From: Paenibacillus sp. W2I17
Lineage (GTDB): Bacteria > Bacillota > Bacilli > Paenibacillales > Paenibacillaceae
Direction: 5' to 3'
Length of the DNA: 64,000 nt
NCBI RefSeq assembly: GCF_030815985.1
Contig: NZ_JAUSXM010000001.1
Location: 6,138,001-6,202,000, forward strand
This document shows positions 34,532-59,228 of this stretch, piece by piece. Under the pieces are notes generated by a model. It saw only the letters and a program-made list of their open reading frames with translations, made no database searches and was not told the origin of the DNA. A program made the position numbers and the translations under genes. How positions within the stretch are numbered: the stretch's first letter is position 1; each line of letters starts with the position of its first letter.

Positions 34532-34595
34532 ATTTTGATTATTCTGCATTAAGGGCTGTATGCATTTATAGCATAACTTGATGGAGGTGATACGG

Positions 34596-35363
34596 ATGAC
34601 CATGCTTCAAGTGTATGGAGTGCAGATCCCATGTAAAGCTATCCTGTTCGATAAAGATGGAACATTACTGGAATTCCTCCAGCTATGGGGGCCGTGGGCA
34701 GAGACGTTGCTGAGTCAGTTACAATCACGTATGAATGAGCTTGGAGCTTCATTTACGGTTGAACGGGAGCACGTCCTGGGCACCATTCATAATGCAGAAG
34801 GTCACATTGTCGGCTATGATCCGCAAGGTCCACTTGCCATTGCGACTGTGGATGAGTGCACGGGATTACTTGCCGGGCAGTTATATGCGGCAGGCATACC
34901 ATGGAATGAAGCGATCACAACGATACGCCAATTTTCAAGCGAGGCCATGAAATCGGTAAGAGAGCGCAAATCGGCTGAACCGATGCCAGGATTACTTGCT
35001 TTCTTACAGAGTTGCAGGGCAGCAGACATACCTCTGGCAGTTGTTACTTCAGACAGTACAGCGGCAGCAGAAACACATCTGGATTGGATGGGGATACGTT
35101 CCTTTTTCACCTCCATTGTGGGCTGTGATCGGGTGACCCAGGGCAAACCGGATAGAGAAGCAGCACTCTTGGCTTGCCGTGAATTACATATCGATCCTGC
35201 GGAGGCCGTTGTAATTGGAGACAGCAATGGGGATATGCAGATGGGGCGGCACGCAGAGGTATCCTATACCCTAGGTTACTGCCCGCAGTTAGATCAAGGA
35301 TCTCACCTGGTTGATGCCCATGCCATTGTTCGTCATTATAATGAGATAAGCGTTATTATATAA
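34596..35363 (+). CDS. HAD-family hydrolase (phosphatase)
   Basis: 255 residues from the ATG at 34596 (GGAGGTGA upstream; an earlier in-frame ATG overlaps this RBS). HAD motif I is FDKDGTLLEF (residue about 18), with a cap domain after it; motif II VVTSDS, motif III GKPDREAAL, motif IV IGDSNGDMQMG. Similar to phosphoglycolate phosphatase or PpaX/YsaA-type enzymes, but the substrate is not certain. Ends 22 bases before the palindromic element at 35386-35574. Confidence 0.87.
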   Translation: MTMLQVYGVQIPCKAILFDKDGTLLEFLQLWGPWAETLLSQLQSRMNELGASFTVEREHVLGTIHNAEGHIVGYDPQGPLAIATVDECTGLLAGQLYAAGIPWNEAITTIRQFSSEAMKSVRERKSAEPMPGLLAFLQSCRAADIPLAVVTSDSTAAAETHLDWMGIRSFFTSIVGCDRVTQGKPDREAALLACRELHIDPAEAVVIGDSNGDMQMGRHAEVSYTLGYCPQLDQGSHLVDAHAIVRHYNEISVII

Positions 35364-35385: not shown

Positions 35386-35574
35386 ATATAAATTGAACTC
35401 AACATTTACACAAAACGGAGAGGACAGAAATAACCTGAAGAAACAGAGTGTTCGCCTTTATCCTCGGATTTTTTCCTTTAGAAAGGAATCAAAAAAATCT
35501 GTGGATAACAGCGATCGGAAGGTTGTTCTGTCATCGTAGTGGCCAGTGTAAATATTCTTTAGTTCAATTTATAT
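35386..35574. repeat. 189-bp foldable palindromic element, MITE-like or structured RNA
   Basis: It begins ATATAAATTGAACT and ends AGTTCAATTTATAT: a 14-bp perfect terminal inverted repeat. Nested inside are ATTTACAC/GTGTAAAT (404-411 with 546-553), GACAGAA/TTCTGTC (423-429 with 526-532), AACCT/AGGTT (432-436 with 520-524), TTATCC/GGATAA (458-463 with 503-508), GATTTTTT/AAAAAATC (467-474 with 492-499) and CCTTT/AAAGG (475-479 with 482-486), all offsets from 35000. The whole sequence folds as one long hairpin, so it is either a miniature inverted-repeat element or a structured RNA. No protein gene fits. Confidence 0.75.
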
Positions 35575-35599: not shown

Positions 35600-36340
35600 A
35601 TGAACGCAACAGAACAACTGGCTGCCTGGATTCAGGAGAGCTCCCGGATTGTTTTTTTCGGAGGAGCCGGGACTTCAACGGAAAGCGGGATTCCCGACTT
35701 CCGCTCGGCTGCGGGTCTGTATCAGACGGAGCAGCATTCGCCTTATCCACCGGAAGAGTTATTAAGCCGACATTTTTTTGATCAACATGCCGATATTTTT
35801 TATGATTTTTATCGTGGCAAAATGCTTCATCCAGATGCGGAACCGAATGGGTGTCATCGACTATTGGCCCGTCTGGAGCAGGAAGGAAAACTTCAGGCAG
35901 TGATCACGCAAAATATCGACGGACTGCATCAGAAGGCAGGTAGCAGCAATGTCTTTGAGCTTCACGGCTCAATTCATCGTAACGGCTGCATGGATTGCAA
36001 GCAGTTTTATACGCTGAATGATATTATACAGTCCCAAGATACAGTGCCTCGCTGTACCACATGTGGTGGTGTGATCAAACCGGATGTGGTGCTGTACGAA
36101 GAGGAGCTGGATCAGACGACATTGTATCGTTCCATTGATGCACTGTCTTCTGCAGATCTGTTACTCGTGGGAGGCACGTCACTGACGGTATATCCGGCGG
36201 CCCAGTTAATTACGTATTTTCAGGGAAAACATACCGTTCTGCTTAACGCTACACCTACCGCTTACGACCGCAGGGCTGATTTGCTGATTACAGAGCCGAT
36301 TGGTGAGGTAATGAATATTGTGGACCAGCTTCTTGGTTGA
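35600..36340 (+). CDS. NAD-dependent protein deacylase, Sir2 family
   Basis: 246 residues. The sirtuin Rossmann fold shows FFGGAGTSTESGIPDFRS near residue 20, TQNIDGLHQKAG (about residue 108), the catalytic His in ELHGSIHR and a zinc ribbon CMDC...CTTC. The GGTSLTVYP motif follows. Removes acyl groups from lysines using NAD. Family length is normal. GGAGGAGAGAG precedes the ATG. Its gene starts 26 bases after the palindromic element, so that element forms most of its upstream region; a promoter must lie within or before it. Confidence 0.93.
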   Translation: MNATEQLAAWIQESSRIVFFGGAGTSTESGIPDFRSAAGLYQTEQHSPYPPEELLSRHFFDQHADIFYDFYRGKMLHPDAEPNGCHRLLARLEQEGKLQAVITQNIDGLHQKAGSSNVFELHGSIHRNGCMDCKQFYTLNDIIQSQDTVPRCTTCGGVIKPDVVLYEEELDQTTLYRSIDALSSADLLLVGGTSLTVYPAAQLITYFQGKHTVLLNATPTAYDRRADLLITEPIGEVMNIVDQLLG

Positions 36341-58899: not shown

Positions 58900-58969
58900 G
58901 AAAAAGGAAAAGGACAGGCCAAAGAATCGGCATGCCAAGTAGCACGCTGTATTCTAAGGCTCTGTCCCT
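58900..58969 (-). terminator. Terminator in the gcvT leader
   Basis: On the minus strand GGGACAGAGCC pairs with GGCCTGTCC across a 36-base loop, then TTTTCCTTTTT. Its 5' arm is also the closing P1 strand of the second glycine aptamer, as expected for an ON switch. Confidence 0.65.
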
Positions 58970-59180
58970 TGTACCTGAGAGTTACCCCGCTACGTTGTGC
59001 AGCAGGTTTCCCCTTGGGTGATCATAACGCCCGCACAGGGCGAATAGATGCTCTCCAGAGTTGCGTCCCGTAAAAGTCCTTTTGCCTGAGAGATTCACCC
59101 CCGCTTATCGGTGGTTTACTCCTTCGGCGTTACCTCATGTGCATCCCGAATCGGGTGTCACGGGTAATCTCTCCCTTTAC
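58961..59180 (-). ncRNA. Tandem glycine riboswitch of gcvT operon
   Basis: Reading the minus strand, two aptamers in series share the glycine-riboswitch core: GGGAGAGATTACCC ... GAATCTCTCAGGC (aptamer 1, about 59180-59070) and GGACGCAACTCTGGAGAGC ... GTAACTCTCAGGT (aptamer 2, about 59069-58961). Both end with CTCTCAGG-type P3b/P1 strands. The linker is short, as in cooperative tandem switches. The associated terminator suggests glycine turns on gcvT-gcvPA-gcvPB. Confidence 0.95.
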
Positions 59181-59228
59181 ATTCATCCGCGGGTATAACA
59201 TAGTCCAATAAACACATTTACTCCTCTC

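Follow-up and report, generated by a model that had tools for sequence, protein, structure and literature searches.

A candidate family of transposable RNA structures in Paenibacillales, represented by a repeat upstream of a sirtuin gene

The spacer between two genes of Paenibacillus sp. W2I17, one for a HAD-family hydrolase (34578..35363, + strand; PF13419, PF00702) and one for a SIR2-family protein (35600..36340, + strand; PF02146), raises the question of whether a short intergenic element can be both a transposable element and a structured RNA. A first-pass annotation of the 64,000-nucleotide stretch of DNA analysed here (the window) had singled out a 189-base interval in this spacer, directly ahead of the sirtuin gene, and had offered two readings of it: a MITE, or an RNA under selection. 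Both were largely supported by our analysis; the transcript side of the second is one that we infer.

The element and its copies in the genome

The interval (35386..35574, + strand) begins and ends with the perfect 14-bp terminal inverted repeats that had been annotated, ATATAAATTGAACT on the left (35386..35399, + strand), which forms the outer part of stem P1, and AGTTCAATTTATAT on the right (35561..35574, + strand). Judging from homologous copies and empty sites, the mobile unit appears to coincide with this interval to within ~3 bases, as TATAAATTGAAC...GTTCAATTTATA with TA flanking. No listed open reading frame of 80 or more amino acids overlaps it, in agreement with the annotated lack of a coding frame, and the SIR2 ATG lies 25 bases downstream of its 3' end.

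Folding of the + strand gave -62.4 kcal/mol, compared with -34.0 kcal/mol (sd 4.0) for shuffled sequence (z -7.1), and none of 200 dinucleotide shuffles folded as well, which rules out a chance fold; the minus strand gave a z of -6.3. The whole interval folds as nested arms from its ends to its middle, as had been proposed, and the arms listed at that time match the minimum-energy fold in kind. From the outside inwards on the + strand, these are inner P1 (TTTACAC, 35405..35411, with GTGTAAA, 35546..35552); P2 (GGACAGAA, 35422..35429, with TTCTGTC, 35526..35532; alignment helix 2); P3 (35432..35436 with 35520..35524; helix 3, its extent in the window judged by eye); a two-pair mini-hairpin (AC-AGA-GT in the window copy, 35443..35449; helix 5, its loop placed by eye on alignment A6, described below); P4 (TCGC, 35452..35455, with GCGA, 35511..35514; helix 6); and P5 (35458..35471 with 35495..35508; also helix 6). 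The partner strands of P2 to P5 rest on alignment covariation. One arm of P5 resembles a DnaA box by eye.

Neither an intrinsic terminator nor a promoter was found within the element: there were 0 terminator-like sites (0.5 expected), and the one promoter-like site (0.8 expected) lies upstream of it, at 35330-35359. When searched against all Rfam 15 families at gathering score, the element was unmatched in the window, in 20 loci and in 7 further loci, and at a relaxed E <= 10 all matches fell far below gathering scores. The statement that no known riboswitch class matches therefore holds for the stretches searched, and a known Rfam RNA is rejected there. Elsewhere in the window, a tandem glycine riboswitch was identified by Rfam 15 at 58960-59186 on the minus strand (65.5 + 34.1 bits).

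A BLAST search of the 7.0-Mb genome with the 189-base query returned at least 40 matches, the query included (the best 40 of 206 candidates), which span 171-189 of the 189 bases at 82-100% identity. A covariance model, R1, built from 30 of these own-genome copies (alignment A2), gave at least 150 matches at E <= 0.01, only one of them, the element itself, within the window. A rescan of fetched stretches found 8 more places beyond the 150 listed matches, so 150 copies is a lower bound. A single-copy element is thereby ruled out, and the suggestion that such elements can be abundant, for which a whole-genome search had been proposed, proved correct. The window copy belongs to the short form: among the 150 listed matches, 99 measure 185-205 bases, 36 measure 222-245, 13 are shorter than 170 and 2 have other lengths. 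Identity to the nearest paralogue, calculated for the 132 copies whose partner aligns over at least 85%, does not exceed 96.9% and has its median at 88.6%, values that suggest accumulation spread over a long time and not a fresh burst. The element is thus short, non-coding, bounded by terminal inverted repeats and present in at least 150 copies, as expected of a MITE.

Filled and empty sites, and the search for an enzyme

To see filled and empty sites side by side, we aligned the sirtuin locus of W2I17 with those of 29 relatives. The element is present at nine of the 30 loci, at one of them lacking its left end, and two more have remnants. Seven loci are clean empty sites, one no longer has the site, and the spacers of the other 11 have diverged and show no element in the alignment. 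A full copy is present in a record labelled P. polymyxa ISL-58, and a 76-base remnant or derivative in Paenibacillus sp. OVF10. The model found no match in seven more sirtuin loci from Paenibacillus.

We also compared own-genome copies with 400-kb syntenic stretches of three relatives. Four clean empty sites, that of the sirtuin locus included, were readable at the sequence level; two further loci with 30-40-base gaps were not clean and were left out of this count. TA is present at the target in all four, and a TA duplication is readable at two, where TA flanks TATAAATTGAAC...GTTCAATTTATA left and right in the filled site, the empty site has it a single time, and the flank beside it differs by a single letter or one base. 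At the other two, the right junction shows no plain TA duplication, which counts against a TA-inserting explanation. Presence and absence in close strains with target duplication, named in the first-pass annotation as one means of deciding between RNA and MITE, were thus both observed, the duplication at two of four sites. The base just outside the TATATAA end could be read at 86 left and 78 right ends (the latter on the complementary strand); it is C at 46 and 42 of these, respectively, which suggests a CTAG-like target.

The end motif of the family (TATATAARTTGAACTAAA..., also given as TATATAARTTGAAC) recurs in similar form in some copies from other genera. End-only and internally deleted derivatives exist as well, among them a 45-base derivative that consists of the two inverted ends alone (L348:1497-1541, at 332008) and an 82-base derivative in another fetched stretch (L346). 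Together, the copy number of at least 150, the inverted ends, the filled and empty sites, the TA duplication at two of four and the deleted derivatives support the MITE reading, in which the TATATAARTTGAACTAAA... ends would be transposition ends and copies would be moved in trans by an enzyme.

We looked for that enzyme in two ways. The IS630-type transposase domain DDE_3 (PF13358) was not found in the genome of W2I17, which speaks against an IS630-driven MITE. We also sorted by eye 15 extra sites of the end motif; one is a remnant (in L083), and 13 others were fetched as stretches of 3-4.5 kb. None of these 13 contained an inward-facing second end (up to 3 mismatches) at transposon distance, and we therefore consider the fetched extra motifs to be remnants or solo ends and not parts of an autonomous copy. 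That neither search found a transposase partner counts against the trans-mobilised explanation. A phage element was rejected for lack of any phage match, and a plasmid element because the one match to a plasmid had a coverage of 46% and an identity of 75.5%. A divergent partial copy lies on a 2.7-Mb plasmid of Paenibacillus cellulosilyticus (NZ_CP054613.1:434103-434196).

The RNA core and its hairpin module

The nucleotide query matched 32 of 59 genomes (own included), all of the same genus. The R1 model reaches further: of 296 genomes sampled from the order Paenibacillales, 213 have matches at E <= 1e-5, and these represent 26 of 48 genera and several families. A sample of 250 genomes from the class gave 22 with matches, every one of them in the window's own family, and 228 without. 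Ten genomes of seven other genera, picked for strong hits and not at random, contain 5 to 87 R1 matches each. Divergently oriented pairs of copies, a few hundred bases apart, occur in three genomes (G204:C60:228299-228812, G281:C88:149212-149867 and G114:C1:1456358-1456973).

Copies of other genera align over ~130 nt. For alignment A6, 7 own and 25 other copies were aligned with MAFFT without structure, and the consensus structure was predicted from A6 itself, so that the following values are somewhat favoured by its derivation. On this fold 93.7% of cells are paired, and 29 of 39 pairs have changed on both sides, including 9 of the 10 pairs of P2. There are 189 double-change cells, compared with 55 in shuffles and 20-38 with the partners slid; all five covariation measures were reached by 0 of 500 shuffles, and the slid controls were far lower. 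Covarying stems, the support that had been sought for an RNA family, are thus present, and two of the findings that would speak against the annotation, a single copy and a lack of compensatory change, are contradicted.

The conserved fold runs from P1, formed by the inverted ends, through P2, P3, the mini-hairpin, P4 and a strongly conserved CTTT/AACA internal loop to P5 with its variable tip. Beside P4, the mini-hairpin has a GNA/GNNA-like loop (GC-GN(N)A-GC in most aligned copies, by eye); 26 of the 32 copies have G-C as its outer pair, and 5 have A-U. A three-pair helix that R1 places beside P3 is broken across genera; we rejected it and omitted it from the within-genome count of G-U and A-C cells given below.

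The non-Watson-Crick cells carry a strand signal. In A6, there are 40 G-U cells compared with 9 A-C cells; within the genome, the count is 185 to 45 over 34 pairs, or 107 to 45 without the one G-U consensus pair (best 128 of 150 rows of alignment A3, cut before the reverse-strand rows, with one element present twice). As equal use of both DNA strands would give equal numbers of G-U and A-C, the excess points to the + strand as the folded one, as it probably is; strand-biased mutation could add to the excess.

A core of this kind might also be retained for transposition itself. The element could be a purely selfish MITE whose interior is kept as a transposition signal, or as a single-stranded DNA or cruciform hairpin for the enzyme, and which has no RNA role in the host. 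End motif and interior do occur together in five copies from other genera (L317, L322, L325, L337 and L341, by eye), the end-only and internally deleted remnants described above are what a selfish element would leave, and the interior of orthologous copies is no less diverged than its flanks. Pairwise divergence averages 0.043 in the flanks, 0.062 in the end arms and 0.058 in the interior, so single copies do not evolve visibly more slowly than their surroundings; these averages include the very unlike copies at 6066745 and 6378116 (arm divergence up to 0.25 and 0.36), which may be separate insertions or replacements. However, in 48 of the 150 listed copies neither end lies within 3 mismatches of the motif and the model still matches, and interior-only matches make up 8 of the 150 listed here and 25 of 84 in genome G132. 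The latter cover only approximately model positions 33-165, the core without these inverted ends, and hint that other end types may exist. The G-U excess that marks one strand, and a sense bias beside genes (below), also argue against a role in DNA alone. We regard the selfish account as a serious possibility that the evidence does not favour.

The interior also varies by a unit of its own. A hairpin module of ~39 nt (AAAAGCTTTC..GAAAGC..) is present in 34 of the 150 listed copies at either of two alternative positions, after CGCCT in 17 and after the mini-hairpin in 17 (split by hand). In one class of long forms, it stands just before P5; the window copy does not have it, but 4 of the 9 sirtuin loci with an element do. 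Its presence varies between sister species at 5 of 11 orthologous loci (6129561, 6213659, 6288103, 6414807 and L297:3848-4044). At these loci, most copy-specific letters on either side of the module are kept, with small patches of difference (6129561 in G095, and 6213659), which makes wholesale gene conversion of the interior improbable.

Orientation beside genes and along the replichore

We called genes by codon score on the 1.31 of 7.01 Mb that had been fetched, with starts taken from the longest open reading frame, so that distances are approximate (one upstream distance, of 9609, is an artefact of missing sequence). The leading strand was assigned from GC skew in 250-kb bins of the sampled stretches, which changes sign near 4.5 Mb and 0.75 Mb; the + strand was treated as the leading strand between 4.45 Mb and 0.745 Mb, across position 0. 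Between tandem genes, 92 copies lie sense and 18 antisense (110 contexts). This mostly sense placement, along with covariation across genera and the G-U excess of one strand, sustains the reading of an RNA under selection.

Orientation could instead be set by replication, for example if insertion occurred into single-stranded DNA exposed at forks, with transcription having no part in it. In keeping with this, 118 of the 150 listed copies lie on the inferred leading strand, and copies follow their genes in 86 of 98 tandem contexts on that strand (12 antisense) and in only 6 of 12 on the lagging strand (6 antisense). However, 852 of 1073 called genes (79%) are also on the leading strand, a share equal to that of the element; where neighbours are divergent or convergent and gene direction gives no cue, copies split only 26 leading to 14 lagging; and the TA duplication suggests a staggered double-strand cut. 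Replication-linked insertion as the sole cause is, in our estimate, improbable. As the element is sense in just half of the lagging-strand contexts, transcription alone does not explain orientation either, and both transcription and replication seem to matter. Between 4.0 and 4.25 Mb, 8 of 11 copies run against the local leading strand as given by GC skew, possibly as the result of a past inversion.

Within the spacers of W2I17, sense copies lie close to the following gene. The next start is a median of 26.5 bases away for these copies and 114 for antisense copies; for the preceding stop, the medians are 77 and 3 bases, respectively (86 sense-tandem and 17 antisense-tandem copies, after 7 that overlap a called open reading frame were dropped). 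A Shine-Dalgarno sequence with a start follows within 90 nt of the 3' end in 51 of 150 own copies, compared with 11 of 150 on the mirrored side.

These distances bear on another account, in which the element is a host cis-regulatory RNA, a riboswitch- or attenuator-like leader copied many times over. The conserved, covarying core would fit this, as would two features of this genome: the element ends -10 to 60 bases from the following start codon in 54 of 86 sense-tandem copies versus 3 of 17 antisense copies, and the copy lies nearer the co-oriented gene in 17 of 24 divergent spacers (counted by hand). Against it stand the filled and empty sites among close species and the absence of an Rfam match in the stretches searched, as well as placement in other genera. 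There, we sampled 79 loci (the best 30 of 87 in genome G204, the best 30 of 84 in G132 and 19 from eight more genomes), 10 of them without a called neighbour. Tandem contexts are again more often sense (34) than antisense (15 of 49), but convergent sites (at 3' ends) outnumber divergent ones by 16 to 4, and the element is tied more to the upstream gene. The Shine-Dalgarno count against the mirrored side is 5 versus 2 of 30 in G204, 5 versus 4 of 30 in G132 and 6 versus 1 of 19 in the other loci. Close-to-start placement thus holds in W2I17 and not in G204 or G132, and a universal 5'-UTR rule is rejected; what the genomes have in common is that copies tend to lie sense in untranslated DNA, and not that they form a 5' leader. 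A duplicated leader is accordingly an unlikely description of the family.

Several known repeat families invite comparison. The target duplication of bcr1 is TTTAT. This family is described as a structured repeat of 147-167 bp with mobile features, titled as specific to the B. cereus group (PMC2267715). By description, the element resembles bcr1 in size, in being structured, in its mobile features and in its occurrence in Bacilli, and differs from it in range, R1 being confined to the window's own family among the 250 class genomes and reaching other Paenibacillales families in the order set. ERIC/IRU is described as a 127-bp repeat with TA at its termini, target duplication and a long stem-loop RNA, co-transcribed, with an orientation-dependent effect on mRNA, in 30, 150 and 711 copies in three species and in two families (PMC2229807, PMC10969869). 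The element here shares TA insertion, a long stem-loop and high copy number, and may by analogy affect mRNA; unlike ERIC, and again by description, it has a Paenibacillales host, a length of ~190-235 nt, a multi-stem core and an optional module at two positions. The same sources give Correia/NEMIS of Neisseria as repeats of ~100-155 bp with TA termini, 24-bp inverted ends and transcripts cleaved by RNase III, and RUP of pneumococcus as a non-autonomous, intergenic repeat with a TA target, driven by IS630-Spn1 (PMC2229807, PMC10969869). An inner core conserved across genera sets the Paenibacillales element apart from Correia/NEMIS as described there. RUP is accompanied by a matching IS630 element, whereas the search for DDE_3 in the genome of W2I17 was negative. 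By analogy, the element would resemble ERIC, NEMIS and RUP in movement and siting, with its own host order and a well-supported RNA core. Among the titles listed by a search of the open-access literature, none describes this repeat family, which is apparently undescribed so far.

Collectively, these data make it probable that the repeat is a non-autonomous, TA-inserting element of the ERIC/NEMIS/RUP kind, mobilised in trans and forming its own family across Paenibacillales, with an interior that is a structured RNA and is present as a sense-strand hairpin in untranslated regions of mRNA. In this model, the ~130-nt interior (P2 to P5, the mini-hairpin beside P4 and the CTTT/AACA loop) would be the conserved structured RNA, and co-transcription with neighbouring genes would place it, folded, in untranslated or intercistronic mRNA. 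There, it would most likely act post-transcriptionally, as an RNase processing site or an mRNA-stability hairpin, and sense orientation would be favoured either through harm done by the antisense form or through a benefit of the sense form. A more speculative extension, which we put forward tentatively and consider rather unlikely, is a mobile regulatory-RNA network: a covarying fold carried on TA-inserting ends would, throughout the order, lie sense in the UTRs of as many as a hundred or more transcripts in a single genome, a common factor (an RNase, an RNA-binding protein or a ligand) would read it, and module swaps would alter how a gene is regulated while the element stays in place.

The repeat is an abundant feature of a much-sequenced order, with at least 150 copies here and 5 to 87 matches in the ten chosen genomes of other genera, and it represents an ERIC-like system in Gram-positive bacteria whose RNA fold has strong comparative evidence. 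Natural empty, filled, module-plus and module-minus alleles exist at the same gene, so the long-open question of whether such repeats act on mRNAs is directly testable. We propose this group as a candidate family of transposable RNA structures with a possible part in gene regulation.
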